Shown: positions 2,233-28,535 of the stretch, piece by piece | Layout of the letters: every line of letters begins with the position of its first letter | How positions within the stretch are numbered: the first letter of the stretch is position 1 | From: a virus | Strand: one strand, 5' to 3' | IMG/VR virus record: IMGVR_UViG_3300030333_002785 | Coordinates: 1 to 29,104 of that record | DNA: 29,104 bases | Translations under genes and position numbers: made by a program | The notes under the pieces: model-generated | Databases searched by the model: none | What the model saw: the letters and a program-made list of their open reading frames with translations, nothing else | Told to the model about the DNA's origin: nothing

Positions 2233-2246
2233 TTTTTATTCCTATG

Positions 2247-2892: not shown

Positions 2893-2908
2893 TGTAACCT
2901 CTTAAAGT

Positions 2909-3808: not shown

Positions 3809-3824
3809 TGTTATCTCCTAAATT

Positions 3825-3841
3825 TAGACATTAACTGTCTA
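3825..3841 (-). promoter_or_regulatory. Leader hairpin upstream of the 299-aa fibre gene
   Basis: A perfect 6-bp inverted repeat, TAGACA and TGTCTA around a 5-base loop, sits between the TATTTATA box and the ribosome-binding site. It could shape the 5' end of the message. It is short, so functional status is uncertain. Confidence 0.35.
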
Positions 3842-3843
3842 TC

Positions 3844-3851
3844 TATAAATA
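3844..3851 (-). promoter_or_regulatory. TATTTATA box (candidate late promoter)
   Basis: The coding strand reads ATATTTATAGATAGAC in the 58-bp gap before the 299-residue fibre gene, 36 bp from its ATG. It is one of a family of such boxes in the larger intergenic gaps of this window. The complement is TATAAATA, the T4 late-promoter octamer, in opposite orientation. Confidence 0.45.
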
Positions 3852-3866
3852 TTATTTTCATACAAA

Positions 3867-4796
3867 TTATGGTAGTCCACTTCCTTCAAATCCTAAGAAC
3901 CAATGGTCTGAACCACTATAATAAAGTCCTCCAGCTACTGCAGTAGGTGTAGCACCTGTTTTAGCTCCAAGAACAACTACCTTATTATCTACTTGAAGAA
4001 CCAACTCATCATCATCATTACGTAGTGTTAGTAAATCACTACTATCTGTAGCCTTAAAAACAAAACTTGAACCTGTTATAGATACATCAGAACCATCACT
4101 ATTGAAAGTAGATGTTCCTAATGTCAATGTATTAGCCTCTAAGGAATCAAACGAACCCGTACCACTTAAACTTAAACCATCTGCAAGTGTCTCACCAACA
4201 TATTGATAAGCAGTCATATACACATTTACGTTTGAACTTAATGCGGTTTCAAATTGTAATACACCTGTTTTGTAATCAAACTGATAATCATTCGTTGAAA
4301 CAACATCACCACTACCTAAAGAACCACTATCCGTAGAAGTTGATTTTAAAACTTGAACGTTGTAGCCAGGTGTTGAATCTTCTGCATTTGCATTAGCTAA
4401 TGAAACATCAGAATACTTTGGTGATATAAAGTTTCCTTGTTGATTTGAATCTATCAACTGAGGTGTAATACCAGCAGCACTACCTGTATGTGGTGGTGAA
4501 GTAGAATATGAAAAAAAGAATACATCTTCTTCAACGTTAGATGGAGTTAATTTTTGTCTGAAATAATATTTCATTATACCTTTATTACCACTACCACTTG
4601 TAAACGTTTTACCACTTTGTGAACTACCACTAAAAGGTAAAGAGCCTGTAGGTATAAGACTAGCTTGAGTGTAAACCTCACTAGCTCTTATATCCAATAC
4701 TGAAGCAAATGCCTCTTGAGAAGCGTTTAAATCAGCGCTTGTAAATCTTCTTCCACCTAACAGTCTATTTGATTTTTTTTCTAAATTTATCGCCAT
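3867..4796 (-). CDS. Putative virion structural protein (309 aa)
   Basis: The first ~40 residues (MAINLEKKSNRLLGGRRFTS, then ADLNASQEAFASVLDIRASE) are helical and basic and unlike the fibre N-termini. The rest is Ser/Thr/Gly-rich beta sequence with TGSLPFSGSS, SLSGTGSFDSLEAN and a C-terminus ending YSGSDHWFLGFEGSGLP. The LSGTGSF text resembles the SGS/TGSFG signature of neighbouring fibres. The gene follows the 739-residue gene by 8 bp. I infer a tail, fibre or fibre-connector component. No catalytic motif or known family is recognised. Confidence 0.65.
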   Translation of the reverse strand: MAINLEKKSNRLLGGRRFTSADLNASQEAFASVLDIRASEVYTQASLIPTGSLPFSGSSQSGKTFTSGSGNKGIMKYYFRQKLTPSNVEEDVFFFSYSTSPPHTGSAAGITPQLIDSNQQGNFISPKYSDVSLANANAEDSTPGYNVQVLKSTSTDSGSLGSGDVVSTNDYQFDYKTGVLQFETALSSNVNVYMTAYQYVGETLADGLSLSGTGSFDSLEANTLTLGTSTFNSDGSDVSITGSSFVFKATDSSDLLTLRNDDDELVLQVDNKVVVLGAKTGATPTAVAGGLYYSGSDHWFLGFEGSGLP

Positions 4797-4804
4797 TACT
4801 TACC

Positions 4805-7024: not shown

Positions 7025-7350
7025 TAAGTTATCTCCAATATACTAGCAAACACATCAAGGTCACTATTAGCATTAGCTTGAGTTTCTAATTTATCCCCCG
7101 CTCCCAAGTTAATTGGTTTCTCGATTACAGTTGTAGAATCTGCTGGAACTAAAACTGTTTTTAAGAGATATCGTCTTGTATTAAAATTAGCACTACCACT
7201 AATAGCTATATCAATAGTAGCATCATTTGTTCCATCAACATTACTAACATACATAGCGTGTACAACTGAGGTTGTATCAGCTGGGCAAGTGTAAATTGGT
7301 TGTAAGGTTGTAGTTGAACCTGTTGCTGCACTTTTAAAGGTTTGAGCCAT
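7024..7350 (-). CDS. Small beta-rich virion protein (108 aa)
   Basis: A compact 108-residue protein with the layout TCPADTTSVVHAMYVSNVDG, then a TIDIAISG strand, LLKTVLVPADSTTVIEKP and a terminal DLDVFASILEIT. From memory, similar small proteins with a 'TCPA.TT.VVH..Y.SN' opening and a 'FASILE' end are annotated as virion structural proteins in marine T4-like phages. It stands 2 bp after the 71-residue gene and overlaps the 739-residue gene by one base. A virion surface or fibre-associated role is likely, but the exact location in the particle is unknown. Confidence 0.65.
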   Translation of the reverse strand: MAQTFKSAATGSTTTLQPIYTCPADTTSVVHAMYVSNVDGTNDATIDIAISGSANFNTRRYLLKTVLVPADSTTVIEKPINLGAGDKLETQANANSDLDVFASILEIT

Positions 7351-7352
7351 TA

Positions 7353-7568
7353 TTATCCTCCAAATACTATGGCTAAAGCAGTTGCTGTATCAACAACACT
7401 TGTGCCTTGTTCAAAAACTCTACCTGTTGTGTTTACACTACCTGAAGTTACTAAAACGTATTCTCCTTGTGTTGTATTCTCACTACCACTAATAAAAAGT
7501 GAACCAGTATTTATTTGAAATGAACCTGATAAATCTTTACTTAGTTGTTTCGAGTCTATTAAAGCCAT
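7353..7568 (-). CDS. Small putative virion protein (71 aa)
   Basis: A 71-residue Ser/Thr/Gly-rich protein (MALIDSKQLSKDLSGSFQIN, then TGSLFISGSENTTQGEYVLV) carrying the GS-rich style of the surrounding fibre proteins and a hydrophobic end (ATALAIVFGG). It is immediately followed by the 108-residue gene. Its start lies 31 bp inside the end of the zinc-finger gene at 7537-7821, an overlap larger than elsewhere in the window. It is probably a minor fibre or adaptor protein; no family is recognised. Confidence 0.6.
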   Translation of the reverse strand: MALIDSKQLSKDLSGSFQINTGSLFISGSENTTQGEYVLVTSGSVNTTGRVFEQGTSVVDTATALAIVFGG

Positions 7569-7821
7569 AATCTTCTTGCTTTCTTTCTTCCCACCACGAA
7601 GTTATTGATTTTGAAATCTTCTTTTTGTGTTGGTAAGATTTTGGTTGTTTCATTTTCTCGATTGTTTCGAGAGTAAATTTTCTATCTAACTGAGCGCAGG
7701 ATTTACATACAGTATTATTTTCCACTGCTCTATCAAAAGCATCTTTTCTTGTATATGTTAAAATTTTACTACAATCGGGACACTTTCTATTTTTTCTATT
7801 CTTCCAATGTCTTTTTCTCAT
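7537..7821 (-). CDS. Zn-finger protein resembling homing endonuclease N-termini (94 aa)
   Basis: A very basic 94-residue protein with a four-cysteine cluster, C14-x2-C17 and C39-x2-C42 (KCPDCSKILTY and TVCKSCAQ). This is followed by IEKMKQPKSYQHKKKISKSI, which resembles the NUMOD3-like helix found in phage HNH and GIY-YIG homing endonucleases. The catalytic HNH or GIY-YIG domain itself is absent, so this could be a truncated or degraded endonuclease or a small independent DNA-binding protein. It interrupts a run of fibre genes, overlaps the next one by 32 bp, and its ATG sits only 6 bp after a TATTTATA box with no clear ribosome-binding site. Endonuclease ancestry is inference. Confidence 0.6.
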   Translation of the reverse strand: MRKRHWKNRKNRKCPDCSKILTYTRKDAFDRAVENNTVCKSCAQLDRKFTLETIEKMKQPKSYQHKKKISKSITSWWEERKQEDYGFNRLETTK

Positions 7822-7827
7822 CTTATA

Positions 7828-7835
7828 TATAAATA
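7828..7835 (-). promoter_or_regulatory. TATTTATA box (candidate late promoter)
   Basis: The coding strand reads GATATTTATATATAAGATG, the last ATG being the zinc-finger gene start. If this is a -10 element, the message would be leaderless or nearly so, or else it serves the downstream fibre genes. It matches the shared consensus TATTTATAtaTaAG. Confidence 0.4.
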
Positions 7836-7862
7836 TCTAAGAATGGTAAAACCAAAGTGGAA

Positions 7863-8696
7863 TTATGAATTAAATTTACCAAAACCAACAATTTCATCAT
7901 CACTTGATAGGTTATAACCTAAATTAGATGTATTAACGTGCAATTCAAGTGTTGAACCTTTTTGTTGTATGTTTAACGCATCATATTCCATAATCATACC
8001 ATTTATAAAAAACATAAAATCATCTTTACTTGTAGAAGTCATAGTGTCTGTAGAAGCTGTTACTGCAGCAAAACTTGCAGTTGTCGTACTGATACTAGCA
8101 GTATGTGTAAATGATTTTCTAAGATATTCATTTTGTGTAATACTTGTATTGAATGATAATCGAGCTGCTCGTTCCGTAGCTAAATCACTCGCATCATTTG
8201 CTACAGCACTATTAGCAATCTCATCGATAGCTGTACTTGAGTTTATACTAAGGGAACCTGTTAGTGCTAGACTTCCTGTAAATTCGTGTTTATCATCAAG
8301 GGTGTTTCCAAATAGTGTTGAACCACTTCTTTGTATTTGAAATGATTGAGTTAATTCACTTCGAATAACTTCAGCAACTATACTACCTGTTACAGTCAGA
8401 TTACCATCTATAGTAGTATCCCCAGTAACCGATAACGAACCTGTAATATGTGTATCACCACCAAAACTAGCAGTTCCATTTGCACTACCAGATATACTTT
8501 TAGTTTTTAGCTCTAAAGGATTTTCTGTTGTAAAAGAATTAAAAGTTACGTTAGATGATGATTCTACCGCCTGTCCGATTGATAAAGTTATACTTTCTGC
8601 TTCTTGAAGATATATGAATTTAGAATCATCGTGTGATGCCGTTACACCTGTACTTCCACTTATCCTTATTGGTGATTTTACTATTAAGTTAGCCAT
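7863..8696 (-). CDS. Fibre-like virion protein (277 aa), paralogue of upstream C-terminal domain
   Basis: A 277-residue protein whose full length resembles the C-terminal ~270 residues of the 592-residue protein just upstream. Shared blocks include TIDGNLTV, a TGSLALTGSL stretch, YLRKSF, FFINGMIMEYDAL and the end GYNLSSDDEIVGFGKFNS. It also has an SISGSANGTASFG motif and starts MANLIVKSPIRISGSTGVTA. The FFING...E.DAL.I block and the DDEI..GKFN end look like a globular terminal domain after a beta shaft. It starts one base after its paralogue stops. It probably forms a fibre or neck appendage; the duplication is direct sequence evidence, the role is inferred. Confidence 0.7.
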   Translation of the reverse strand: MANLIVKSPIRISGSTGVTASHDDSKFIYLQEAESITLSIGQAVESSSNVTFNSFTTENPLELKTKSISGSANGTASFGGDTHITGSLSVTGDTTIDGNLTVTGSIVAEVIRSELTQSFQIQRSGSTLFGNTLDDKHEFTGSLALTGSLSINSSTAIDEIANSAVANDASDLATERAARLSFNTSITQNEYLRKSFTHTASISTTTASFAAVTASTDTMTSTSKDDFMFFINGMIMEYDALNIQQKGSTLELHVNTSNLGYNLSSDDEIVGFGKFNS

Positions 8697-8697
8697 C

Positions 8698-10476
8698 TTA
8701 TGTATTGAATTTGCCGAGTGCTATTATCTCATCATCACTTTCTAAATTATATCCTATTGAAGAGTTATCAACCATTAAGTGAAAACTACCAGTAGAAACT
8801 TGTTTGATGGATAATGCATCGTGTTCCATATATTGTCCATTGATAAAAAATACAAAGTCATTTTCATTTGTTGCAGTCATATCAGTAGGTGCTGATGCAG
8901 TTGTTGCGTTAAAACTAGCAGTCGCAATGTTTACTATTGAATTAGATGTTTTAAAGAAACTTTTTCTCAAATAATCTTGTTTTGTTCCCAAATCAGTTGT
9001 AGCGAATTGTTTTACAGCATTTTCTGTAACTAATGCTGTAGTACTTGAATCTGTTAGAGAAGTATCATTTGATATTTCGTTAATTGTATATCCATTTAAA
9101 ACAAGTGAACCTGTTAGTGCTAAACTACCCGTGTAGGTATGTGAATCATCTTGAGTATCTCCAAACTTACTAGAACCACTTGTAAACAAAATAGATGCAG
9201 ATACAAATTCTGTTTTAACTTCTTGAGCAGTTAGTATACCACCTACAGTTAAATTACCATCTATAGTAGAATTAGATGTTACATCTAAACTACCAGTTAC
9301 TTTTACACTACCTTGTATACCATCACTACCATATGATATACCACCTATTTGTGCACTACTAGCTGATATGGTATTGAAAGTTACATCAGCTGATGTACCA
9401 ACCGCTTGTCCTATTGATATAGTTTGTTGTAAGTTATTAGAACCATCCCAAGCAACACCAGTATTACTTATTGTTATACCAGTTCCTTGTAGTAAGGTTA
9501 ATGGGTTTGAAGTTGAAATACGTACTTCTGTTCCAACTCGTGGTAGCGTATCTTCAGTTTCAGGATCGGGTGCTTCAGGATCGAATTCAGAAAATGGGCG
9601 TTGTACATCAAAACCTCTTCCAACTACAATCGGTGATTGTCTATGATGTGCTGTTTTACTATAATCTAAATTACCATAACCTGTTTTATCTTTACCTAAA
9701 TCTGCTACCTCTGTACCAAAAACTAATCTCTTTGGTGATAAGAATCTTTTTGTTGTTAATTCATCATTAAATTTTTCAGGTAGTAGGTAACCACGAAAGT
9801 TAAAATTAAACTCTGTTCTTATAAGTCTTTCTTCTGTACTGATTTCACTAGCATCAGTAAATTCTTCTACGTTAACTCTGAACTTAAACTTACCTGGCTC
9901 ACCCCAATATGAACCATCAGAATATGTTATTTGTTCTATTAGGTGATTCATTTGTTCTACGTAAGTAGTCCAAACTCTAGCTTGATATTGCATAGTAACA
10001 AAATCAGGCATAGAAACTCTAAATATTTCTTTTTGAGGTCTTAAGCCTGTTTGTGTTGAAAACTGGTCATATCTATTTACGTTACTATACTTTTGTTTAA
10101 ACGTTTGAAATATGGCTGGTTTGTTAGCATCTAACTTATCCACTGTTACTTGTTCATCTTTTTGAAGTGATATTCTTCTAAAAAGAATAACAGGTGTTAT
10201 TATCTGTCCACCCTTATCTCTTATATAACCATCTGCTCTTGAAGCTTTCCATCTTTCAGGATTACCATAGAATACAGGAACTTTTACTTTCTCACCTTGT
10301 TCACTAACTTCTGGTTTAATAACCTCATTGAAGTAGTACATAATCGCAGCATCAAAGTCTTTAATCGTAGCGGTGATGTTCTTTACATCATCTTTATCTC
10401 TTCTTAATAATTCACCACGATTGAACTCATTTCCTATATATCTCAGAGCTCGTGGTAACGGCTTATTTCTTGCCAT
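8698..10476 (-). CDS. gp15: gp15-like neck/tail-completion protein fused to fibre-like domain (592 aa)
   Basis: The N-terminal ~290 residues show the sequence pattern of T4 gp15, the tail completion and sheath-stabilising protein. VKVPVFYGNPERW is followed by TPVILFRRISLQKDE, VWTTYVEQMNHLIEQITYSD and an end RLIRTEFNFNFRGYLLPEKF; T4-like gp15 has comparable blocks in this order. The remaining ~270 residues are unrelated to gp15 (T4 gp15 is 272 residues in total). They are instead homologous to the separately encoded 277-residue protein downstream, ending DDEIIALGKFNT. The ATG overlaps the preceding TAA by one base. The gp15 call rests on pattern recall and on its place after gp13- and gp14-like genes, so it is moderate. 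The two-part layout and paralogy are clear. Confidence 0.55.
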   Translation of the reverse strand: MARNKPLPRALRYIGNEFNRGELLRRDKDDVKNITATIKDFDAAIMYYFNEVIKPEVSEQGEKVKVPVFYGNPERWKASRADGYIRDKGGQIITPVILFRRISLQKDEQVTVDKLDANKPAIFQTFKQKYSNVNRYDQFSTQTGLRPQKEIFRVSMPDFVTMQYQARVWTTYVEQMNHLIEQITYSDGSYWGEPGKFKFRVNVEEFTDASEISTEERLIRTEFNFNFRGYLLPEKFNDELTTKRFLSPKRLVFGTEVADLGKDKTGYGNLDYSKTAHHRQSPIVVGRGFDVQRPFSEFDPEAPDPETEDTLPRVGTEVRISTSNPLTLLQGTGITISNTGVAWDGSNNLQQTISIGQAVGTSADVTFNTISASSAQIGGISYGSDGIQGSVKVTGSLDVTSNSTIDGNLTVGGILTAQEVKTEFVSASILFTSGSSKFGDTQDDSHTYTGSLALTGSLVLNGYTINEISNDTSLTDSSTTALVTENAVKQFATTDLGTKQDYLRKSFFKTSNSIVNIATASFNATTASAPTDMTATNENDFVFFINGQYMEHDALSIKQVSTGSFHLMVDNSSIGYNLESDDEIIALGKFNT

Positions 10477-12913: not shown

Positions 12914-14545
12914 TTAAACGTAGTTAACGTCAGCAACAATGATTTTACCGTAGAATTCACTACGAACCATTTTCTTAGCGTAACGAGTCATAACACCTTT
13001 ACGTGGTGTAAAGTTCTTAGGATCGTATACTAATGGTGTCATTATTAATGGTACGTATGGAGCGTAAACAGCACCTGTTTCTAAGAAGTTAGATCCTCTA
13101 AATCCAACAAGGATTTGGTTCTCTAACATATAAGGGTTCTTATAAACAGTAAATCTGTTATTGATTTGTCCAACTCTCTGTACACCCATTGCGTAGGATG
13201 CAGTAGAAGCATCACCATCAGCTGAGCTAGCATATCCAGGAATTGATTCTAAGATTGTAGCTGTCTCAGGAGAAACAACTATGAAGTTTGCACCACCTCT
13301 TAGAGTCTTTTGATGAATTGCGTTAGATACTGCTTGTATCTTGTTTCCAAGTGTTTGGAACCACTCGCCTTTAGTGTATGCGTTGGAAGCGCCACTTGAT
13401 TCAGTAAATGAACCTACGCCGTCATACTCATATCCAACTCTTGCTGACCATCTTTCAGTCTTAGCAGATGCATTTGCAAATAACATATCAAGGATTTCTA
13501 AGTCGATTTCCATTGAGATGTACTCACTTAACATAGAAGTCAATTCTGCTTCAGCGTCAACTGAATGATAAGCGTTAAGATCCTGAGCAAGCTCTGGAGT
13601 CCAAACAGCTTTTAACTTACGTGTTTTTGCAATTATTGGAATACTCTTTAAGCTAATATCAACTTCTGGTATGTCGATGTCAGCTTCAGGATTTGCGTCA
13701 ACTGCACCTGCACTAGCTTCAAACTCAGTACGTGAGTAGTTTGTTGTTGATTGCTTGTGGAACTTAACTCCAACGCCGTTAGCAGCGTTGAAAGTACCAG
13801 CAGCAATAAAACGAACTTCACTTTCATCAGCTGATGCTGAGGTGTATGCTGGGTAGAATGCGGTTACGCCAGAACCAGAAAGTTCGAATGCACGAACTCC
13901 ATTAAGATCTGCACTTGATAAGTCAGCTGCTCTAACGTGAACGTTATGTATTGAGCCTGAAGCGACAGAAGCAGATAGATCTGGTTCATAATTAACATCT
14001 TTCCAAACTACGGAAGATGTTGTGTATTTATTAGCACTAAGTGATGAAGCAATTTCAATTACACTTGAGCTAAAGTCATTGATGGAATATCCAAAACGAC
14101 CTGCACCATACAAACCGCCAGATGCATCGCCAGAAGATGATGTATCACCAAAGATATCAGCATTCTCTGTATGCAAACCTGTAGCTTGTGCTGAGCCGTA
14201 CTTGAAGTCCAAGTAGAAAATAAGACCAGATGGTAAGTTCATTGGCTGAACAGAAACGAATTCCTGTGCTGCTAATTCACCAAAGATTCTACGAACCAAA
14301 GGTAGAGCAACTCCGCTCCACTCTTCAGAATTTGCAGAAGTACCAGTCTGAGAAGATTCATCAATTAATTGACGAGCCTGATTCTCAAGAAGAACTGCCA
14401 TACCGTGTGTCTTTGTTTCATTACCAATACCTTCTAAAAGACCGGTTGGTTCCCATTTTTCTACCAACTTACGTGTTTGCTCTAAAAGCGCACGTTGTGG
14501 ATTATATCCATCCATAATTTCAGATAATTGTTCGAATTTTGGCAT
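12914..14545 (-). CDS. gp23: Major capsid protein, T4 gp23-like (543 aa)
   Basis: The main shell protein, close to T4 gp23 in length (521). It opens with MPKFEQLSEIMDGYNPQRAL. GVALPLVRRIFGELAAQEFV and PMNLPSGLIFYLDFKYGS are hallmark gp23 blocks near residues 80-115; TRKLKAVWTPELAQDLNAYH, IDLEILDMLFANA and FIVVSPETATILESIPGY follow. Gp23 is made as a precursor and trimmed by the prohead protease after an (I/L)-x-E site; LIDE ending at residue 63 fits well (T4 cuts after residue 65). The gene follows the scaffold by 31 bp, presumably in one transcript, and is closed by a strong terminator. Ser/Ala-rich insertions in the middle (about 130-260) are likely surface domain. Confidence 0.95.
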   Translation of the reverse strand: MPKFEQLSEIMDGYNPQRALLEQTRKLVEKWEPTGLLEGIGNETKTHGMAVLLENQARQLIDESSQTGTSANSEEWSGVALPLVRRIFGELAAQEFVSVQPMNLPSGLIFYLDFKYGSAQATGLHTENADIFGDTSSSGDASGGLYGAGRFGYSINDFSSSVIEIASSLSANKYTTSSVVWKDVNYEPDLSASVASGSIHNVHVRAADLSSADLNGVRAFELSGSGVTAFYPAYTSASADESEVRFIAAGTFNAANGVGVKFHKQSTTNYSRTEFEASAGAVDANPEADIDIPEVDISLKSIPIIAKTRKLKAVWTPELAQDLNAYHSVDAEAELTSMLSEYISMEIDLEILDMLFANASAKTERWSARVGYEYDGVGSFTESSGASNAYTKGEWFQTLGNKIQAVSNAIHQKTLRGGANFIVVSPETATILESIPGYASSADGDASTASYAMGVQRVGQINNRFTVYKNPYMLENQILVGFRGSNFLETGAVYAPYVPLIMTPLVYDPKNFTPRKGVMTRYAKKMVRSEFYGKIIVADVNYV

Positions 14546-16083: not shown

Positions 16084-16656
16084 CTACTTATCTTTACGAG
16101 CTGCTATAGCTTTTGCTATTGCTTTTCTTCTTTTTGCTAGATACTCATCTGAATCATCTTTATCACCATCGTTATCAATATCACCATCTTCTTTACCAAC
16201 TGGATCCATAGCTTCACCTAATTCAAAGTATCTTCCAAGAATGTTACCCATATCCTCATATAATACAGCCATTCTTTCTTTTAGTTGTTGTGCTTCACCA
16301 GCTATCTTACCAAATTGTTTGGAAAAGCCAGTTAATTCTTTCATATTACGATTTACTGTAATCTTATCAAAATTCTCATCAGCTTCAGTAAGAGCATATT
16401 GTTTAGCATATTCTGCTAATTCAGAAAGTCCTTTAGCTACTTCTCTCAAATCATTCTCACCAAAAATGGTTTTTCTATAGTTACCAAATGTGGATAACTT
16501 TTCTGTTAACTCAGATGCAGATACGCTTGTTTCTTCTTCATCCATACTTTCTTGCTTAATAAGTTTTGATAACTGAATACCATTCCCTATTGGCTTCTCA
16601 GTAACAACACCACCTATTGTTGCAAATTCTTTGATAATATCTTTCATTTTAACCAT
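16084..16656 (-). CDS. Unknown head-region protein with dockerin/EF-hand-like loop (190 aa)
   Basis: I start this at the ATG at 16656 because AAGGAG lies six bases upstream; an 18-codon longer reading would run into the preceding gene. The body is helical and charged (FATIGGVVTEKP, TVNRNMKELTGFSKQFGKIA, LKERMAVLYEDMGNILGRYF). Near the C-terminus DIDNDGDKDDSDEYL (residues 159-173) has Asp at loop positions 1, 3, 5 and 12 with Gly at 6, as in dockerin/EF-hand calcium loops, followed by a basic helix KRRKAIAKAIAARKDK. Similar acidic loops plus basic tails occur in proteins of other marine T4-like phages, from memory. It may be a prohead-core or internal head protein, but function is unknown. Confidence 0.7.
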   Translation of the reverse strand: MVKMKDIIKEFATIGGVVTEKPIGNGIQLSKLIKQESMDEEETSVSASELTEKLSTFGNYRKTIFGENDLREVAKGLSELAEYAKQYALTEADENFDKITVNRNMKELTGFSKQFGKIAGEAQQLKERMAVLYEDMGNILGRYFELGEAMDPVGKEDGDIDNDGDKDDSDEYLAKRRKAIAKAIAARKDK

Positions 16657-16666
16657 TATTGGCTCC

Positions 16667-17011
16667 TTACTTTCTAAGTTTTCCTCGTTTAGAGTATCTT
16701 CTGAAACCATCTCTTACTCGGTTCCATAAAGCCCTCATTAAATCTTTTTGTCCTGTACCAGTATCTCTAACTGGACCTGACATAATTGCTCTTTGTAAAT
16801 CCATAGCATCGTACTTACCAGCTTTTACACCATCCATCATCATTTTTACAGTTTGTGCTGATGCTTTACCAATCATCTTTCCCATCTTTATAACATCTTG
16901 TTCAACCATTTTCTTTGCTTCTGGCGAACTAAATGGTAATTGTGATGGTGAACTAAAAGGTGCTTCATCAACCATATTTTCCATTAGTCTTTTATAAATA
17001 GATTTTTTCAT
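16667..17011 (-). CDS. Unknown basic head-region protein (114 aa)
   Basis: A 114-residue protein with a Pro/Ser stretch (EAPFSSPSQLPFSSPEAKK) containing a repeated PFSSP, then Met/Lys-rich helices (VKMMMDGVKAGKYDAMDLQR) and a basic end (LWNRVRDGFRRYSKRGKLRK). The ATG overlaps the preceding TAA by one base. It lies in the block between protease and scaffold where T4-like phages often keep small core proteins. I do not recognise a family; the basic C-terminus could bind DNA or the acidic scaffold. Confidence 0.65.
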   Translation of the reverse strand: MKKSIYKRLMENMVDEAPFSSPSQLPFSSPEAKKMVEQDVIKMGKMIGKASAQTVKMMMDGVKAGKYDAMDLQRAIMSGPVRDTGTGQKDLMRALWNRVRDGFRRYSKRGKLRK

Positions 17012-17689: not shown

Positions 17690-17968
17690 CTAAGTATTTT
17701 TTCTTTTCCAGTCAGCTAATTTGACTTTCATTTCAATCACATATTTTTTATAAAAACGCTGTAGCTCTAATACTTGTCTTTTGTAATCAGCATCTTTATC
17801 TTTTGCTAAATCTTTCATAAGAGTTTTCATATTTCTATCAACTCTATCCATAGCACTTTCAATAGATTTAAAGTAATTATCATATCCAGCAAAACCCATC
17901 TTTATCTTTCCTTCAGATAATCTAAAATTTCTCCACTTAGTCCACATTTCTTTTGTGTATTCTGGCAT
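17690..17968 (-). CDS. Unknown helical protein (92 aa)
   Basis: A 92-residue charged helical protein (MPEYTKEMWTKWRNFRLSEG, then AMDRVDRNMKTLMKDLAKDK and QRFYKKYVIEMKVKLADWKR). It has no cysteine and no membrane segment. Its ATG overlaps the protease stop by one base (TAATG), so translation is coupled to the prohead protease. A core or scaffold accessory role is possible from position only. Confidence 0.62.
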   Translation of the reverse strand: MPEYTKEMWTKWRNFRLSEGKIKMGFAGYDNYFKSIESAMDRVDRNMKTLMKDLAKDKDADYKRQVLELQRFYKKYVIEMKVKLADWKRKNT

Positions 17969-18585
17969 TATTCTTCTCTCATTATCTGATTAATAACGTG
18001 TTCTACTTTACAATAATCTCCACAAGTTCTACCTTGTGTCTTATCTACTGATTCATTCATTGGATACATAAATGCACCGTGTGTAGATGGGTTAGATACG
18101 AAATCAAAAGCGATGAGTTCAAAATCTTTTTGAACTTCCTGTGCCTCTTTACCACTATCTTCAGTTACAGTCTCTACTGAACCAACACCTCTTGATGAAA
18201 TACCTAACTTGATACCATTTTTAAATAACTCTCTTAAAATATTACCACTTGGTGTTGTTAAAATTTCTACTTCACCTATTAAATCGTTTCCTCTCCAATT
18301 CATATCAGTAATATTATGTGAAACGTTAGCAAGGTTTACTACTGAACTATCTGGATGGTCAAGTTCACCCATAGCTCTCTTTTCTTTTACAAAATTCTTT
18401 GAATACTCGTTAGCTTCTCTAACTAATATTTCTTTAGGATAAACTCTACCATTTTGGTTTTTAGCTTCTGCTCTTTGTAATACACCACGTACAACTAACT
18501 TTCCGTTGTTCTCTTTTACAGATTCAGTTATCTGTTCAGGTGTTACTTCAAAAGGTAGATAATCTACTATAAGTTGTTTATTCAT
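17968..18585 (-). CDS. gp21: Prohead maturation protease, T4 gp21-like (205 aa)
   Basis: A serine protease of the T4 gp21 family, which shares the herpesvirus-assemblin fold. It sits in the prohead core and cleaves capsid and scaffold proteins before packaging. Length is 205 (T4 gp21 is 212). Visible features are an early VVRGVLQRAEAKNQNGRVYP segment, GELDHPDSS with the likely catalytic His77, and KLGISSRGVG with the likely nucleophile Ser130 or Ser131, then FELIAFDFVSNPSTHGAFM. The C-terminal tail with two cysteines (GRTCGDYCKVEH) is extra. It starts one base after the 81-residue gene and is coupled to the next gene. A TATTTATA box lies 16 bp upstream. Confidence 0.93.
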   Translation of the reverse strand: MNKQLIVDYLPFEVTPEQITESVKENNGKLVVRGVLQRAEAKNQNGRVYPKEILVREANEYSKNFVKEKRAMGELDHPDSSVVNLANVSHNITDMNWRGNDLIGEVEILTTPSGNILRELFKNGIKLGISSRGVGSVETVTEDSGKEAQEVQKDFELIAFDFVSNPSTHGAFMYPMNESVDKTQGRTCGDYCKVEHVINQIMREE

Positions 18586-20180: not shown

Positions 20181-22007
20181 TTAAATTTTGTTATTTAGAG
20201 TAGAATCTACTTCTTTTTCATACTCTTTTTTTAACTCTTCTGATTCATTTATGATTTTTTTATCGTTTTTAGCTATCTTTTTTAGAGATGTTTTCATATT
20301 ATCATAATGAGATAGAGCTAAATTAGTTGCAGCAACTACTCTATCGTGTTTACCTAAAGGATCTCTTCCTCTAGCACTTCCATCTTTACTGTATTTTGGT
20401 AATTCTTTTGGTCTTCCAGCGCCTTCGTGTCCACCCTCTGGTGCTCCACCCTCTTCATCAAACTCATCTAACTCGTGTCCTGTTCTACCCATAGCCAAAT
20501 CTGCTGGTGTTCCTTGTGATTGTCCTGATTTTTCAGGATCATTACCCTCATTTTCTATCTGAGAGCGTCTGAACTTTTCTTTAGTATCATCTATTATCTT
20601 GTCTCTCTCTGTTTTAATATCATCTTTACTGAAATTAAATACATTTGAGTAAATCCAATCAGAAGAAACTAACCCATCTTGTAACATCGAAGATGCTAAT
20701 TGTGTCTTACTACTCCACAACTCTACTTTTTCTGTTTCATATATTGTAGATGGGTTTGTTAAATTTAATTCAAAGTTTACTAATTCAGCATCTTTAAATC
20801 CTTGTGCATATAAATGAACAATAGCTATCTTAGTTAACTCTGATACTGTAATTCTTTGTAATCTTTCTATGGTACGAGCAAATCTTACATCCTCAGCTGC
20901 TAATGTAGCTTTAGCACCCAATCCCTCTTCATATCCTAAGAAAGCTTTTGGCACTCTTAATGCAGCCATCATTTTATTTCTGAGGTATTCTATATCATCA
21001 GTAGCCTCATATGTTAAGCCTGGTAATGAATCGATTTGTGTTCCACTATCACCACCACGAACTGGTAAGAAGAAATCTTCAGTTATGTTTTGCATATTGT
21101 ATTTGAGATTATATTCGCCTGTTGTTTGGTCTATAATAGGTGCCTTCTTCATCTTATCAACAATTTGCCCCATATAGTTATCAACTTCATTTGGTGGTAT
21201 GTTTCCAATATCTACTCTAAACACTCTCTTTTCAGGTGCTCTCATAATACGATGAATTAACATCGCATCTTCCATAAGAGATAATTGTTTCCATATTTTT
21301 CTACCACTCTCAATCATTGATTTACCGTAAGGTAGATAGTTTGTATCAGCCAACATTCTAAAATGTGCTATTTCAAAATTTTCAAACTCTGTCTTAATAG
21401 TTGATACTGAACGTCTTGGGTCTGATGTTTCTTGTACAAATTTTACCATCTCAGGATTCTCAGGATCCATTCCCTCTATCCTTGATAAATCATATGGAGA
21501 CATTGGTTCTACATTTGTAATACCATATTTCTCTGCGATGTTTAACTTTAAAAAGAAATCTCCATACTTACACATATTACGAATCCACGGCCAGAGATTA
21601 AATTCTATATTTAAAATATCATAAAATAAGTTATTTAAGATTTCTTGTATATTCTTATTACTTGAATTTATGGTTAATACGTTTCCATACTCTGATTTCA
21701 TTGTTGATTCATCAGCGTAAATATCTAATGCAGAACTAATGATTGGGTCAGCATCCATCGATTCATAATCTTTAAATAATCCCAACCTTACAGTACGAAC
21801 CATAGCGGTATCTGAATAACCACTTAATCCTAAAGGACCTGCGCTACCTTTATACAGCTTAGTATATCTATCTACTAAATGTGATTTAGCATTAGCTTGT
21901 ATTTCATCGGTATCTATTACTTTTAATTTTCTTCCACCAACGTTTCTGATTATTACATTTGTAGAAAACAATCTTTGTAGTCTACCAAATAATGATGTAT
22001 CAGCCAT
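20181..22007 (-). CDS. gp20: Portal protein, T4 gp20-like (608 aa)
   Basis: The dodecameric portal at the unique capsid vertex, through which DNA is packaged and ejected. Portal blocks visible in order are MADTSLFGRLQRLFS, MDADPIISSALDIYADESTM, FFLKLNIAEKYGITNVEPMS, AHFRMLADTNYLPYGKSMIE, EDAMLIHRIMRAPEKRVFRV, MRVPKAFLGYEEGLG-type text near 'ALRVPKAFLGYEEG', and AEDVRFARTIERLQR. T4 gp20 is 524 residues; this one is longer mainly through a C-terminal tail of Gly/Glu/Pro-rich sequence followed by basic helices (from about residue 500). It begins 11 bp after the terminase with GAGG before the ATG. Confidence 0.94.
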   Translation of the reverse strand: MADTSLFGRLQRLFSTNVIIRNVGGRKLKVIDTDEIQANAKSHLVDRYTKLYKGSAGPLGLSGYSDTAMVRTVRLGLFKDYESMDADPIISSALDIYADESTMKSEYGNVLTINSSNKNIQEILNNLFYDILNIEFNLWPWIRNMCKYGDFFLKLNIAEKYGITNVEPMSPYDLSRIEGMDPENPEMVKFVQETSDPRRSVSTIKTEFENFEIAHFRMLADTNYLPYGKSMIESGRKIWKQLSLMEDAMLIHRIMRAPEKRVFRVDIGNIPPNEVDNYMGQIVDKMKKAPIIDQTTGEYNLKYNMQNITEDFFLPVRGGDSGTQIDSLPGLTYEATDDIEYLRNKMMAALRVPKAFLGYEEGLGAKATLAAEDVRFARTIERLQRITVSELTKIAIVHLYAQGFKDAELVNFELNLTNPSTIYETEKVELWSSKTQLASSMLQDGLVSSDWIYSNVFNFSKDDIKTERDKIIDDTKEKFRRSQIENEGNDPEKSGQSQGTPADLAMGRTGHELDEFDEEGGAPEGGHEGAGRPKELPKYSKDGSARGRDPLGKHDRVVAATNLALSHYDNMKTSLKKIAKNDKKIINESEELKKEYEKEVDSTLNNKI

Positions 22008-22018
22008 TTTTTACCTCA

Positions 22019-23599
22019 CTATAAAAGCCATTCAAGGCTTTCCTTATTTTTACCGACTTCCCATTTCCAAGAATCGGCTTTATCTGTTTTGTTAGTATAG
22101 ACTCCTTGACTATTATACTGATTCATACTATCAAGAGCTTTTCTCTGTAATTGAACACCTTCAGCACGTAATCTAAGAGCAGTTTCTCTTACCCATAGAG
22201 CTACAGCATATGACATAACTAAGTCATCATTGTATCCTCTCATTGCCTCAGCGCGTTGCCCGTTATATATAAATACAAACAACTCATCAATTAAACGATT
22301 TGAACTAACTTCTACTAACTTTTCTCTAAAAAATTCTTCTAATTTAGCAACAACTAATGGTCTTGTTTTCATTGACATTGTGAAACCAGGCACCATCTTC
22401 TTTTCTTCTCTATAATGTTTATTTGTCATTTGATGTTCTACATCAACATACTTTAAATCTTTACTCATATAGAATAGGTTAGGGTAACCTCTATCTATAA
22501 TTTGTTGAATAGCTGCCCAACCAATATTGTTATTCTCCACAACGAGTAATGCATTGTTATACTCTGCAGATATATTAACTAACAAGTTACCAAAATCTCT
22601 TGTAGACAAAACACCTTTGTATTCTGCTACTTGTTTTAAAGTTTCTAACTCAAGTATATGAAATGCTGAAAAGTCTGTAGAATCTCCCCTACTAACGTCA
22701 GCACTAACTATGTAATCTTTAGTATAATTTGGTGGTTCCCATATCCATAAATTACTATCCACTCCACGTTTTTCCATAGGTTCATTAACAAACTTAGTTT
22801 TTTGTTCTTCAAGTAGAACACCATCAATTACAGTTTGTCCTGAACTTATAAAATCACAATCACATTCTTGAGCTGCAAGTGATGGACCAAGTAATTTATC
22901 TTGTTCATCTCTCCACTCTTGCCCTCTATCTGGATGTACAGTCCAATGAAGTTTGATAAAATTAAAATCATTAATACCATCTTCAGCATCCATCCAAGTT
23001 TTGTGAAACCAATTACCAATACCATTAGGTGTAGATAGTGCGATACATTGTCCACCAGTTGATAGTGTCTGAGAAGCCGCTGCCCATATCCCATCAATCT
23101 TTTCAATGAATGCTGCCTCATCAAGTATCAGTAACGATAGTGCTTCAGAACGACCACTATCCTCACCACTTGATACAGCTTTAATTTGAGAACCATTTTT
23201 ATATCTAAGATTTAATTTATTATCTTCAACACACTTTGCCTTTAACCAAGTAGGTAAATTTGCGTGCATCACACGAACTTTAGTAACCAAGTTTTTAGCA
23301 ACATCTTGTTTAGTTGCTATAACCAATATATTCTTATCTTGATTAAAAGTCATCATCCATAGTGAGTAAGCAGCTGTAAGAGTTGATATACCTAATTGTC
23401 TAGCTTTTAAGATAACGTTAAATCTATGTAACAATAAATCAGACATAGTTTTTTCTTGAAACTCATACAAATCAAAAGGTATCTTACCTTTCATTGGATG
23501 TTGAATGACACAATACTTCTTTACAAAGTAGCTTGGGTCACTAGCACATTTAAGATATTCTTTTTTAATAGCTTCTTTTAGTGGTGCTGGATTAGCCAA
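22019..23599 (-). CDS. gp17: Terminase large subunit, T4 gp17-like (526 aa)
   Basis: The packaging motor ATPase-nuclease. The ATPase domain has a Walker A-like KARQLGIST (65-73), Walker B LLILDE (156-161) and the coupling motif ALSTPNGIGNWFHKTW (187-202). The RNase H-like nuclease domain has acidic residues at D301 (VSADVSRGDSTDF), E355 (LLVVENNN) and D458/D459 (GYNDDLVMSYAVAL). It is shorter than T4 gp17 (610). The start must be TTG at 23599 or later, since a stop codon directly precedes it in frame; AGGAAAG gives a ribosome-binding site and homologous-looking sequence starts within a few residues. It overlaps the upstream membrane-protein gene by 8 bp. No intein is visible. Confidence 0.95.
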   Translation of the reverse strand: MANPAPLKEAIKKEYLKCASDPSYFVKKYCVIQHPMKGKIPFDLYEFQEKTMSDLLLHRFNVILKARQLGISTLTAAYSLWMMTFNQDKNILVIATKQDVAKNLVTKVRVMHANLPTWLKAKCVEDNKLNLRYKNGSQIKAVSSGEDSGRSEALSLLILDEAAFIEKIDGIWAAASQTLSTGGQCIALSTPNGIGNWFHKTWMDAEDGINDFNFIKLHWTVHPDRGQEWRDEQDKLLGPSLAAQECDCDFISSGQTVIDGVLLEEQKTKFVNEPMEKRGVDSNLWIWEPPNYTKDYIVSADVSRGDSTDFSAFHILELETLKQVAEYKGVLSTRDFGNLLVNISAEYNNALLVVENNNIGWAAIQQIIDRGYPNLFYMSKDLKYVDVEHQMTNKHYREEKKMVPGFTMSMKTRPLVVAKLEEFFREKLVEVSSNRLIDELFVFIYNGQRAEAMRGYNDDLVMSYAVALWVRETALRLRAEGVQLQRKALDSMNQYNSQGVYTNKTDKADSWKWEVGKNKESLEWLL

Positions 23600-25013: not shown

Positions 25014-28000
25014 TTATCCAAACTTTAATAATCCGAGGATTTGATTGATTGGTGCGAATGCACCTGTAAATTTATATATCTTATTTTTATACTTAAAAAC
25101 AATTCCCTCTGATGGAACGATAGCATCTGAACCACCAATAGCCTCAAACTTCTCTAACTGCCTTTTTAGAGTATCTAACTTAGATACATCTTTTGCAGAT
25201 TTGAGTTGTTTAACTGCAGCATCAACTTCTTTCTTCATCTTAGCCACGGTTGCTTTTGGATTCGCTGCTAAGAAACCACTAACGTTTTTAAGTATCTCTG
25301 CACCCAATTCAAAAAATAAAATTTCAAATGGTTTTATATTATCTTTTTGTAACTTTTTCAAATCTTTTTTGTCTGTAGATTTAGCCCAATCTAAAAACTT
25401 TTCATTCTTTATATTCTTTTTATCTAACCTAAAACTTTTGTCTAAGAATGCCCATCTTTTTGTTAATTTAAGTAAAACAGTTCTTGGAATTCTATACTTG
25501 TATTGTTTAGATGCATTATATATGAATTCCATCCAATAAGTTTCGTGATACTTACCTAAAGTATCATTATCCTTTAGTCTATAAATATTCTGTAATTTCT
25601 GTAACTTCGATAAAAAATATTTTTGTCTTTTAGCAAAATCTTGTGTTTTAGCTACTTTTAAAAAATTAGGTTTAGAAATAGTAAATTTTTTCTGTACGTG
25701 TTGATTTACTTGTCTAATCATACCCTCTAGTATACGAGCTAAAGATGCATCAATTTTTTTAGCTACACCAGCTTCAGTATACTCTGTAGCGTTATGAAAA
25801 ACTAAGTAAGCTCCATCATAATTGACTACATTAGCAGATGCTGGATACATAACCTCTAAGTTCATCCACCTCTTACCATTACCAAAAACTTTTTCTTTTT
25901 GTTTATCTGATAACTTAGTTATAGCTTTACTTAAATCTTTCATAGCAAAAACAAATGTATCCTTAATAACTCCTCTACCAGCAAACAAACTTTTTACAGC
26001 ATTGATGTTTAAAGCGTTTTCTCCAAAACCTTTTAGCTGTCCTTTGTTTCTAGCTGCTACTAACTGATTACCTTTCCAACTAATTAGTAAGTTTTGTCCA
26101 TCAAGTTTTTCTGTAACGTTATCCTCACGATTAAGTTTACCACTTAGTCCTAATTTTATTATCTTCTTTAAATCTCCAAAAGTTAAATCAGCATCATCAA
26201 ATGGATGATTCATATGTCCAGCAGCACCACCCTCAAGTAATTGAACACGAAGTGATTTTGAAATCCACTTCTTATAGGATTCGTAATCTTTTTCATCCAC
26301 AAATCCTTTATACCCACCAATTTCTTCAGAACCTTTTGGGGTGCCTGTTTTACTTACCTCAGATAAACTCTTTGCATATTTTAAAGCTGCTTTATTACCT
26401 TTGTTTTTTGCTACCCACCTAACTGCACTTTGTTTAGACACCATCTTTTTTCTACCACGTGGGTTTGGGTTCTTTACAGTATCAGGCATTTTAGTCTTTT
26501 GTGGTTCTTTCTTTTTGTCTGCTCCCTTTTTCTTTTTATATGCACGTATCGCACCAAACCCTAATCCTGCAGCCATTGTACCAACATTACCTAATATCTT
26601 TGTGTAAGGTGCTGTCAAACCTGTAGTAGCACCTACAGCTGTAAGAACTAAAAACTTAGTTCCCATCTCACCACCAAACATATCAGCAAGTGAATAATCT
26701 CCACCTGAAGCGGCTGATGCTACTGCTGATAAATCTAAATCATATTCGGGATCACCTATAAATGTCATCTTAGTCCAAGCATAAGTAACAGCGGATGCTG
26801 CACCTAAACCCATAACCTTTTTTAGTTTTGGATTTTTTTGTAAGAAGTTATCCAACTTCTTCAATCCTTTTTCTTTCTTTTGTCCAAACTTTGTACCTGC
26901 TAACTTTTTAGCGATTTTATTAGGAACTACATTTAGAATTTTTTGATATGCTTGGAAACCTCTTTTAGCACCATCTAATACTTTGTCTACACTAAAATCA
27001 TTTAGTTTAGCAACAACAAAAGTATTTTTGTTGTTCATAGTTTGTTTTATTTTACTGAAAGGTTGCTTTGCTTTTTTACTAAAATCTTTTAGAAAGTTAT
27101 CAAATCTTATACCCTCTTCTATCGTCATAGTTTCAAACAAGATAGATTCGGATAGTTTTTTTCTATCTGTATTTTGTTGACTACCATCTGCACCTGCTGC
27201 TACAGGAGCTAATACTGATACACCTGTTACTTCTGTATCTGATTTCAATCCCATCCACTTTACAACTTCAAAACCTATGTTTTGTAGAACTCTGTTATTG
27301 ATATGATTTTTATAACGGGCTATTGATTTACGTGGTGATAATGTAGTACCATGTGCAACTGCAGAAACAATTCTTGTTTTCAACAAAGGATCGTATGCAG
27401 GGTCTTGTGCTTTATTACTAACTATATAATCTATAACCTCTGCACCTAAATCACCCAACCAATCTTTACTAACATCCATATAGTCAGCAAAGTTTGCATA
27501 AAACGATACAGGTCCATCATCCACGTGTGCGATTGTAGACACGTTACTTTCTGATAAAAACTTTTCTATGATTTCATTCATAGATTTAAATCTTGTAGTC
27601 AATAACTTATACATTGTATTGTCTGAATACCCAAACAACTTTTTGAATAATTTTTTTCTATTAGGTTCTGATATTTTATTACTACCCAATACTTTTCTCA
27701 TCACAGTACCACTAACATCCTCACCTGCTAACTTTACTGAAACATGAGGTGCTATCATCACATAACCATTTTCTAAAAACCCATTCATGTCTCCACCTTT
27801 TTTATAAGGTTGAAAGTATTTACCACCTGATAATCTACTTGCATCTTTCTTACCAAGTGCGAATACTGCAGCAGTTTCATTTTCATCAAAGTATTTGAAA
27901 ACTTCTACAGGTTTATATGGTTGTTTTGATTTGAATATATTTTTAGCAGGTACACCCATCTTTACCATATGTGCTTTTTTCTCTCTGAAGTTTAGTGGGT

Positions 28001-28535
28001 GACGTGGTGGTTTCTTGATATCGGATGTGACGATATAGACATCATCAAATTGTCTTTTCAATCTATCGAAGACTGCTTTGTGATGAGGACCGAATGGTTG
28101 AAAACGGCCAGGATATATTGCTATTGTTTTTTTGATTTCTTTTTGCTCAGTTACAGGCTCATAACCTTTTTTCTTTTTATCTTTTTCTTTTTGATGTCCA
28201 CCTTTTTCTTTATCATCATCATCCCAATCATAGGTATCGGGCTCAGCTATGTTACCCATAGAGTCAGCACCCATAGAGTATTGATGATGTTTGACGAAAT
28301 CTTTATCGATATCTTTTTTTGATGTTGATTTTACTTTTTTGAATTTATCTGTAACTTTCGTAGGCAAAGATTCTTCAATTTCATCCTCTGAATATACGGA
28401 CCTTTGGCCATACTTGTCAAGCTTTTTTTTAGTTTTTTTTATCTTTTTTTGACTTGGGGATGGTAGTGTTCCTGCGGGAGCTCCAAACTCTTCTTCAAGA
28501 AAAGGTGATATTAACCATTTGGTAAGTTTGTTCAC
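25014..28535 (-). CDS. Large fusion: HxGH-type nucleotidyltransferase plus KxDG ligase-like nucleotidyltransferase (1173 aa)
   Basis: Starts at GTG (28535). After a low-complexity lysine-rich lead (1-135), residues ~137-285 form a HIGH-superfamily nucleotidyltransferase: GRFQPFGPHH at 143-152 and DVSGTVMR at 273-280 match the two nucleotide-binding motifs of NMN/pantetheine-phosphate adenylyltransferases and cytidylyltransferases. A helical middle and a hydrophobic Gly/Ala-rich zone (about 585-690) follow. Residues ~780-1173 resemble the DNA/RNA ligase and capping superfamily: EKLDGQN with candidate nucleotidyl-Lys810, R829, NLEVMYP with E894, EGIVFK at 1143-1148 and KIYKFTG at 1152-1158. So two unrelated nucleotidyl-transfer modules seem joined. 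Substrate is unknown; NAD, a nucleic acid end or a protein are all possible. Hydrophobic segments and late position hint at virion packaging, which is speculation. Confidence 0.75.
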   Translation of the reverse strand: MNKLTKWLISPFLEEEFGAPAGTLPSPSQKKIKKTKKKLDKYGQRSVYSEDEIEESLPTKVTDKFKKVKSTSKKDIDKDFVKHHQYSMGADSMGNIAEPDTYDWDDDDKEKGGHQKEKDKKKKGYEPVTEQKEIKKTIAIYPGRFQPFGPHHKAVFDRLKRQFDDVYIVTSDIKKPPRHPLNFREKKAHMVKMGVPAKNIFKSKQPYKPVEVFKYFDENETAAVFALGKKDASRLSGGKYFQPYKKGGDMNGFLENGYVMIAPHVSVKLAGEDVSGTVMRKVLGSNKISEPNRKKLFKKLFGYSDNTMYKLLTTRFKSMNEIIEKFLSESNVSTIAHVDDGPVSFYANFADYMDVSKDWLGDLGAEVIDYIVSNKAQDPAYDPLLKTRIVSAVAHGTTLSPRKSIARYKNHINNRVLQNIGFEVVKWMGLKSDTEVTGVSVLAPVAAGADGSQQNTDRKKLSESILFETMTIEEGIRFDNFLKDFSKKAKQPFSKIKQTMNNKNTFVVAKLNDFSVDKVLDGAKRGFQAYQKILNVVPNKIAKKLAGTKFGQKKEKGLKKLDNFLQKNPKLKKVMGLGAASAVTYAWTKMTFIGDPEYDLDLSAVASAASGGDYSLADMFGGEMGTKFLVLTAVGATTGLTAPYTKILGNVGTMAAGLGFGAIRAYKKKKGADKKKEPQKTKMPDTVKNPNPRGRKKMVSKQSAVRWVAKNKGNKAALKYAKSLSEVSKTGTPKGSEEIGGYKGFVDEKDYESYKKWISKSLRVQLLEGGAAGHMNHPFDDADLTFGDLKKIIKLGLSGKLNREDNVTEKLDGQNLLISWKGNQLVAARNKGQLKGFGENALNINAVKSLFAGRGVIKDTFVFAMKDLSKAITKLSDKQKEKVFGNGKRWMNLEVMYPASANVVNYDGAYLVFHNATEYTEAGVAKKIDASLARILEGMIRQVNQHVQKKFTISKPNFLKVAKTQDFAKRQKYFLSKLQKLQNIYRLKDNDTLGKYHETYWMEFIYNASKQYKYRIPRTVLLKLTKRWAFLDKSFRLDKKNIKNEKFLDWAKSTDKKDLKKLQKDNIKPFEILFFELGAEILKNVSGFLAANPKATVAKMKKEVDAAVKQLKSAKDVSKLDTLKRQLEKFEAIGGSDAIVPSEGIVFKYKNKIYKFTGAFAPINQILGLLKFG

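Follow-up and report, generated by a model that had tools for sequence, protein, structure and literature searches.

The window analysed here is the whole 29,104-nucleotide stretch of the virus record IMGVR_UViG_3300030333_002785, which is probably a fragment. On its minus strand lies an open reading frame (ORF) of 1173 residues that is considered below as a candidate precursor of several enzymes. Residues 1-1173 run from 28535 down to 25017, and the plus-strand frame over the same interval, 25014-28535, holds many stops. An original prediction had assigned to the product of this ORF two unrelated nucleotidyltransferase active sites. The ORF and every motif quoted in support of them are present on the minus strand at the residues given at the time. 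The features of the protein are listed from its N-terminus onwards, L numbers designating the loci of relatives.

25014..28535, minus strand: whole ORF, 1173 residues, GTG start, stop codon at 25014-25016
28491..28535, minus strand: leader VNKLTKWLISPFLEE, residues 1-15, candidate capsid-targeting peptide ending in hydrophobic-x-Glu (hxE), proposed from similar leaders in relatives
28146..28154, minus strand: VTE, residues 128-130, candidate cleavage site directly before the nucleotidyltransferase domain
27549..28145, minus strand: HIGH-type nucleotidyltransferase-fold domain, residues 131-329 (PHROG_395, PF01467, AF2 and VIA)
28080..28109, minus strand: GRFQPFGPHH, residues 143-152, variant of GRFQPFHxGH (sequence and conservation)
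27696..27719, minus strand: DVSGTVMR, residues 273-280, SGTxxR motif (S, G, T and R in 29/29)
27549..27557, minus strand: LSE, residues 327-329, candidate cleavage site near the boundary where L004 and L008 have two genes
27114..27548, minus strand: module without assigned function, residues 330-474 (region covered in 121 ORFs; low AF2 confidence)
26232..27113, minus strand: variable linker with hydrophobic helices, residues 475-768 (covered in 29 ORFs by blastp)
26232..26240, minus strand: LLE, residues 766-768, candidate cleavage site directly before the ligase core (Glu before GG in 60/84 contexts)
25017..26231, minus strand: ATP-dependent RNA-ligase-like (covalent nucleotidyltransferase) domain, residues 769-1173 (AF2, Foldseek, VIA, weak PF09414)
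26091..26111, minus strand: EKLDGQN, residues 809-815, motif I with the candidate nucleotidylated Lys810 (K in 82/82)
25842..25868, minus strand: WMNLEVMYP, residues 890-898, motif III (E894 in 82/82)
25062..25109, minus strand: motifs IV and V (EGIVFK...YKFTG), residues 1143-1158 (E1143, G1144, K1155 and T1157 in 82/82)

The predicted fold supports the membership of the N-terminal nucleotidyltransferase (NT) domain in the HIGH-type superfamily. PHROG_395 ('cytidyltransferase') matched residues 130-327 with an E-value of 2.9e-8. PF01467 (CTP_transf_like) matched the window protein at E 1.3e-3 (19.4 bits, under its 21-bit cut-off) and exceeded this cut-off in four of seven relatives (L022, L144, L147 and L008). 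A profile of 29 NT sequences reached the archaeal nicotinamide mononucleotide (NMN) adenylyltransferase NMNAT 1f9a at E 3.3e-4 and NadM 2qjo at 1.3e-3. The AF2 model of residues 125-760 has a mean pLDDT of only 59.3 and is poor past the NT domain, over which alone it is confident (pLDDT 62-93 in 10-residue blocks at fragment positions 11-200). NadM 2r5w was the top Foldseek match of this domain (E 3.3e-4) and also gave the best VIA score (Z 10.8, rmsd 3.9, 174 residues aligned). All 50 VIA rows are NMNAT, nicotinic acid mononucleotide (NaMN) adenylyltransferases (NaMNAT) or phosphopantetheine adenylyltransferases (PPAT), the last coming within 1 Z of the best score. Structure prediction and fold search were thus in agreement with the adenylyltransferase-type fold first proposed. 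On the model, the substrate is indistinguishable among those of the NMN, NaMN and phosphopantetheine enzymes, and nucleotidyl transfer is a predicted activity.

The consensus forms of the diagnostic motifs are HxGH, extended to GRFQPFHxGH, and SxTxxR. The NT domain holds an (I/V)SxTxxR motif in the form VSGTVMR, and residues H152, K186, G228, K230, S275, G276, T277 and R280 are identical in 29/29 NT sequences, the window included. The HxGH position reads G149-P150-H151-H152, i.e. the first His is replaced by Gly149 while H152 is kept. Among 76 unique NT sequences, again including the window, 69 have GxHH and seven have HSGH or HRGH. The HIGH-type assignment therefore holds for the profile, the conservation and the predicted fold but not for a canonical HIGH motif, and retention of the key His residues in homologues applies to the second of them only. 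Because of the altered motif (GPHH), we call the domain NT-like, with the fold just given, and do not file it as an NMNAT. Gly149 in place of the first catalytic His could also mean that the domain is a degenerate pseudoenzyme with a structural or binding role. We regard this as unlikely, though worth keeping in view. PPATs work with TxGH, H152 and SGTxxR are invariant in 29/29 sequences, H151 goes with the Gly form and 7/76 sequences keep HxGH, all of which argue against degeneration.

The C-terminal domain is supported, again by its predicted fold, as a member of the covalent nucleotidyltransferase superfamily, with RNA ligases nearest and no subfamily assigned. When compared with the consensus forms of ligase motifs I-V, motif IV is EGIVFK (residues 1143-1148) and motif V lies in KIYKFTG (residues 1152-1158). 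K810, D812, G813, R829, E894, E1143, G1144 and K1155 are identical in 82/82 aligned sequences, a set that contains the window and goes down to 38-39% identity with it, so the key Lys is kept in homologues. In motif V, a single Lys (K1155) with F-T after it takes the place of KxK; T1157 is found in 82/82 sequences and Lys at position 1152 in 53/82 only. The ligase/capping assignment made in the original prediction is thereby upheld for motifs I, III and IV, for the profile, the conservation and the predicted fold, and is qualified for motif V.

The AF2 model of the ligase domain has a mean pLDDT of 75.9 and a pTM of 0.64. RNA ligases come first in Foldseek, T4 Rnl2 (2hvr_B) with a probability of 0.96. 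The best VIA match of residues 751-1173 is the Naegleria RNA ligase (Z 7.8, rmsd 4.7, 184 residues aligned), other scores being 7.2 for the fungal tRNA ligase, 6.8 for T4 Rnl1 and 6.6 for T4 Rnl2. The ligase/capping superfamily accounts for 49 of the 50 rows, a fold result in line with the first proposal at a moderate best Z. RNA ligases hold ranks 1-25 (Z 7.8-6.4), and DNA ligases and capping enzymes appear at Z 6.4 and lower, level with the lower RNA ligases. As the Z scores are moderate, the superfamily assignment relies on the uniformity of the VIA list together with the invariance of the catalytic residues. PF09414 (RNA_ligase) is the sole Pfam family that most members touch (21/24, weakly, best E 9.5e-4); the window protein scores 15.9 bits and does not reach the curated 27-bit cut-off. 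In a PHROG search with 24 ligase members, no PHROG matched more than three of them (best E 0.032). Profile A1 retrieved no solved relative of the ligase from the PDB, its two matches (E 0.15 and 1.6) being unrelated proteins.

Relatives are encoded in at least 593 viral-contig stretches of 600 candidates, and in the named records Microcystis phage Mel-JY01, LR756508 and LR756500. In total 185 loci were examined, the window's own included and several being overlapping pieces of one contig, with 133 unique ligase sequences. NT and ligase share one ORF in 128 of them (75 of these ORFs are complete), always in the order NT then ligase with at most two residues after the ligase. The gap between the two domains ranges from -14 to 781 residues. 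Of the 57 remaining loci, 50 have a ligase ORF truncated at the edge of the contig, and the two domains are encoded by adjacent separate genes in L004, L006 and L151 (one type) and in L008. The NT motif of L145, GSFKPMTGGH, is diverged and escaped the NT profile; at 2392-4440 of this locus, on a contig from a metagenome-assembled genome (MAG) labelled Bacillus sp., a 683-residue protein carries the ligase with motif IV as EGIVFE, and the contig is possibly a phage contig within the MAG. L084 and L146 encode the same protein, a stand-alone ligase, in jumbo-phage records (L146 and L084, 429 and 462 kb) that also hold a PF04095 (NadV-like) gene. PF09414 RNA-ligase matches occur elsewhere too, two in the record of L146 and one, below the cut-off, in Mel-JY01. 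A profile search of genome contigs returned two loci, both in MAGs. With the LR756508 protein as query, no viral-contig relative was found. In Mel-JY01 the homologue WWT39297.1, recorded as 'cytidylyltransferase like protein', has NT fused directly to ligase and lies upstream of the terminase.

Additional modules were sought in 40 long ORFs picked from the fused set by length and completeness, at a threshold of E 1e-3. CTP_transf_like was matched in 28 of them, Zeta_toxin in 18 and AAA_33 in 18, and PolyA_pol, PolyA_pol_RNAbd, Zn_protease and ParB_N in one each. From these sequence matches, the Zeta_toxin/AAA_33 region of 18/40 ORFs is read as a P-loop kinase module. A CCA-adding (tRNA-nucleotidyltransferase) module is found in L144 and L147 (PolyA_pol, E 1.5e-29 and 4.5e-31); L147 additionally has an HD domain, and a PAP2 domain is found in L004. 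Many precursors (L022, L051, L144 and others) have after the leader a small module, VGDTxxxGxFKNKKxxVKxI, which is also present, with 55% identity, in the hypothetical protein AGE60462.1 of Pelagibacter phage HTVC008M. As for the middle of the window protein, relatives of the 330-474 module open the second gene in L004 and L008. Further on, at 26466-26783 (minus strand, approximately residues 585-690), hydrophobic Gly/Ala-rich linker segments are potentially membrane-active and lie in a region that only 29 ORFs cover.

The original prediction had taken the two active sites for a dual enzyme. A single coupled enzyme is rejected as the leading idea, because linkers vary over the range given above, enzyme modules come and go, and L004/L006/L151 and L008 encode the domains in two neighbouring genes, of which the second has its own leader.

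The genes that follow the ORF, as identified from their sequences, are those of a T4-like head operon:

22019..23599, minus strand: terminase large subunit (PHROG_2, E 3.6e-48)
20181..22007, minus strand: portal protein (PHROG_213, E 9.8e-68)
17968..18585, minus strand: prohead (head maturation) protease, candidate processor of the precursor (PHROG_207, E 5.2e-56)
12914..14545, minus strand: major head protein (PHROG_138, E 1.5e-76)

Synteny with the terminase was assessed in 184 loci, 157 of which have at least 2.5 kb downstream of the ligase ORF. A homologue of the window terminase lies downstream on the same strand in 155 of these 157, at a median distance of 1239 bases. Only L084 and L146, the stand-alone jumbo-phage ligases, lack one despite 4.5 kb of downstream sequence. 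The closest terminases among named phages are those of Mel-JY01 (53.7%) and of the Flavobacterium immuto phages (53.4%); in the latter, neither domain profile matched among the 12 proteins scanned around the terminase. Elsewhere in the window, all on the minus strand, 7537-7821 is a small Cys-rich basic ORF amid structural genes, possibly a mobile-element remnant, and several Ser/Gly-rich ORFs in 1-9000 have recurring SGS/TGSF repeats and a fibre- or appendage-like look. The ORF at 16084-16710 ends in a DGDIDNDGDKDDSDEYLAKRRKAI stretch, EF-hand/dockerin-like by eye, and matches five PHROGs including a 'cytidyltransferase' family; a similar stretch, with a weak Dockerin_1 match, occurs in an 841-residue protein upstream of the terminase of Flavobacterium phage immuto.

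The window leader has its putative site at FLEE (residues 12-15) and resembles by eye the N-terminus of T4 Alt, which begins MELITELFDEDTTLPIT and whose database record places it in the capsid and has it entering the host. A crude leader pattern of the type MNKLTEWLTKPFLEE is found in 70 of 86 complete ORFs. [LIVMF]xE occurs within residues 8-30 in 52/53 unique N-termini versus 156/464 other ORFs, and shuffled leaders carry hxE in 58% on average and 77% at most. Similar patterns precede the modules. [LIVMF]xE lies before the NT domain in 49 of 51 unique contexts (shuffled mean 16.9, maximum 25; the exceptions are L004 and L027), and [LIVM]xE followed by Gly lies before the kinase in 25/25 unique contexts with variable upstream residues (shuffled maximum 17); for hxE the pre-kinase count is likewise 25/25, with a shuffled maximum of 18. 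A wider listing of kinase contexts has 27 entries, and the only one lacking the pattern is truncated by the end of its contig to a single residue. Where the kinase is encoded outside precursors, five of nine contexts have a short leader immediately upstream of the module. In L004 and L008 the gene is divided downstream of the NT domain, close to LSE329 of the window protein, and the second of the two genes has its own leader. The accessible portions of PMC9026906 state that T4 gp21 cuts after L/I-X-E and that the first 10 residues of IPIII are sufficient for packaging (PMC9026906). The likeness of leader and junctions to T4 prohead-protease sites suggests packaging and processing.

These observations are brought together in a reading that we hold with modest confidence, namely a virion-packaged, protease-processed modular precursor that would deliver separate RNA-repair enzymes. 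The motifs and their conservation, the predicted folds, the shuffling of modules, the synteny and the leader and junction patterns are what the analysis shows; packaging, cleavage, injection, the activities and the RNA substrate are what we infer. The leader would target the precursor of this T4-like phage to the prohead core, where the phage's gp21-type protease would cut after hydrophobic-x-Glu at the borders between modules, so that individual enzymes would remain in the head and reach the host together with the DNA. The C-terminal unit would be an ATP-dependent RNA ligase, nucleotidylated on Lys810, that seals RNA breaks. The NT unit would be an enzyme with the adenylyltransferase fold of the NMN, NaMN and phosphopantetheine type and an altered HxGH. 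Given the kinase and CCA-adding modules of relatives, the most likely task of the set would be to repair tRNA or other RNA cleaved by a host defence, ahead of phage gene expression. We favour RNA repair since, in relatives, the polypeptide that carries the RNA-ligase-like domain also carries a CCA-adding enzyme or a P-loop kinase. The earlier guess of delivery with the virion has gained from the terminase synteny and from the T4-like leader and protease-site patterns. The suggestion of a role against defences has fared unevenly, RNA repair gaining from the CCA-adding enzyme and the kinase, and rescue of nicotinamide adenine dinucleotide (NAD) losing ground with the distribution of PF04095.

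Several results weigh against the packaged, processed precursor. The crude leader pattern is absent from 16/86 complete ORFs, several of which have a similar leader by eye, unlike L145; moreover, the earliest available start codon was taken for each N-terminus, and the control set of 464 ORFs is uncurated. The hxE pattern before the ligase is weak (64/84 against a shuffled maximum of 62), the residue directly before GG being Glu in 60/84 contexts and Met or Cys in the other 24. With the strict L/I-x-E form, the counts are 24/51 before NT (shuffled maximum 18), 16/25 before the kinase (12) and 64/84 before the ligase (54), and many sites are V-x-E. Junction contexts share descent, and neither the shuffles nor the counts are weighted for kinship. 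Within the window protein, hxE is present in the folded domains too. Concerning the ligase itself, the VIA Z scores are moderate, under 8 and within 1-2 of one another, and the best Foldseek E-value is 0.023 (none at or below 0.001). With hhalign, matches to T4 Rnl2 (0.9%) and T4 Rnl1 (0.2%) are not significant, the profiles being of low diversity, and score barely or not at all above the controls with unrelated pairs (NT versus Rnl2 0.2%, ligase versus NT 0.2%); motif I (Rnl1 and Rnl2) and motif III (Rnl1) are collinear by eye only. Finally, no end-healing phosphatase family was matched among the window proteins scanned.

Some of these points fit a rather unlikely alternative, in which an uncut multi-domain RNA-repair enzyme, made late and unpackaged, acts in the producing cell and the leader has another role such as docking on assembling heads. 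The two domains and the RNA-repair modules would then be present without any packaging step, and both the missing pre-ligase Glu (24/84) and the hxE inside domains speak for it. Such an enzyme is harder to reconcile with the terminase downstream in 155/157 loci and with similar leaders on five of nine kinase genes outside precursors and, where the locus is split, on the second gene.

Improbable in our judgement is that the NT unit is an NMN adenylyltransferase restoring NAD after a NAD-depleting defence, the ligase being a separate passenger. The nearest folds (NadM, NMNAT and NaMNAT) fit this role, whereas the PPATs within 1 Z of the best and the Gly replacing the first His of HxGH in 69/76 sequences do not. 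According to the accessible portions of PMC9503650, every phage with NadM has NadV too (PMC9503650), which counts against NAD rescue here, as PF04095 (the NadV family) had no match in eight of the ten records searched. Six of these eight are contigs of 53-94 kb, probably fragments; the other two are the fusion-bearing records of Mel-JY01 (190 kb, titled complete genome) and LR756508 (484 kb), and it is their lack of a match that weakens the NAD role. PF04095 matched only the two jumbo records with the stand-alone ligase, L146 and L084, which are probably one phage. Very unlikely, lastly, is a DNA ligase/capping-type enzyme acting on packaged DNA ends, or an assembly catalyst comparable to T4 Rnl1 in its tail-fibre function: the presence of DNA ligases and capping enzymes among the fold matches at Z 6.4 and below and the position beside the terminase are compatible with it, but RNA ligases occupy VIA ranks 1-25, RNA_ligase is the only Pfam family touched by most members (21/24) and L144 and L147 have CCA-adding modules in the same polypeptide.

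Returning to the packaged precursor, a bolder form of it is put forward tentatively and with less confidence. It would be an injected RNA-repair kit made as one precursor, in which kinase, CCA-adding, adenylyltransferase and ligase cassettes are swapped between prohead-protease sites and which mends defence-cut tRNA ahead of any phage gene expression; if real, this would be a previously undescribed class of phage weapon. T4 injects single leader-tagged proteins, and enzymes such as T4 Rnl1 and polynucleotide kinase are known examples of tRNA repair by phages. If true, the precursor would join leader-tagged injection, polyvalent proteins and phage tRNA repair in one protein cut by the capsid protease. 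It would also explain a large, poorly annotated gene beside the terminase in hundreds of viral contigs, and supply RNA ligases as well as a delivery code, made up of the leader and hydrophobic-x-Glu, open to direct testing in a cultured phage.

No description of a ligase/NT polyprotein, and no paper naming Mel-JY01, came up in searches of the open-licence PubMed Central literature. The accessible portions of papers on polyvalent proteins (PMC5512222), NAD/ADP-ribose systems (PMC9503650), jumbo-phage RNA repair (PMC7824862), SPN3US head processing (PMC5694885) and the T4 head (PMC3012670, PMC9026906, PMC10229621, PMC9958956) do not describe the combination.

Compared with individual enzymes, the NT domain shares the nucleotidyltransferase fold and the GRFQP and SGTxxR motifs with NadM, archaeal NMNAT and CoaD but has GxHH for HxGH, and its partner is ligase-like, not a Nudix domain or a ribosylnicotinamide kinase. 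The ligase-like domain shares motifs I, III, IV and part of V and the predicted fold with T4 Rnl1/Rnl2, Naegleria Rnl and fungal tRNA ligase; it has 10-14% identity to them in structural alignments with no significant profile match, and differs by approximately 250 residues between motifs III and IV and by KxT for KxK in motif V. The closest named relative, WWT39297.1 of Mel-JY01, is without the variable linker, and its record name covers the NT part only. At the level of the whole protein, the polyvalent proteins (Iyer et al. 2017, PMC5512222) are likewise large and multi-domain, with unrelated enzymes in variable composition among late virion genes, and the window-type precursor too has several disparate enzyme domains per polypeptide among late genes. 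In the accessible portions of that work, polyvalent proteins are predicted to be injected, as is proposed here; ART, zincin, 2H and other domains are named but no RNA-ligase/HIGH-NT pair; and processing is ascribed to an internal zincin metallopeptidase, whereas here Zn_protease is found in 1/40 ORFs and the junctions are prohead-protease-like instead (PMC5512222). With T4 Alt and the internal proteins IPI-III, the precursor shares a short N-terminal leader with an L/I-x-E or gp21-like site, seen in 52/53 unique N-termini and presumably cleaved. In T4 Alt and the internal proteins one leader serves one unit, while in the window-type precursor one leader would serve several modules.

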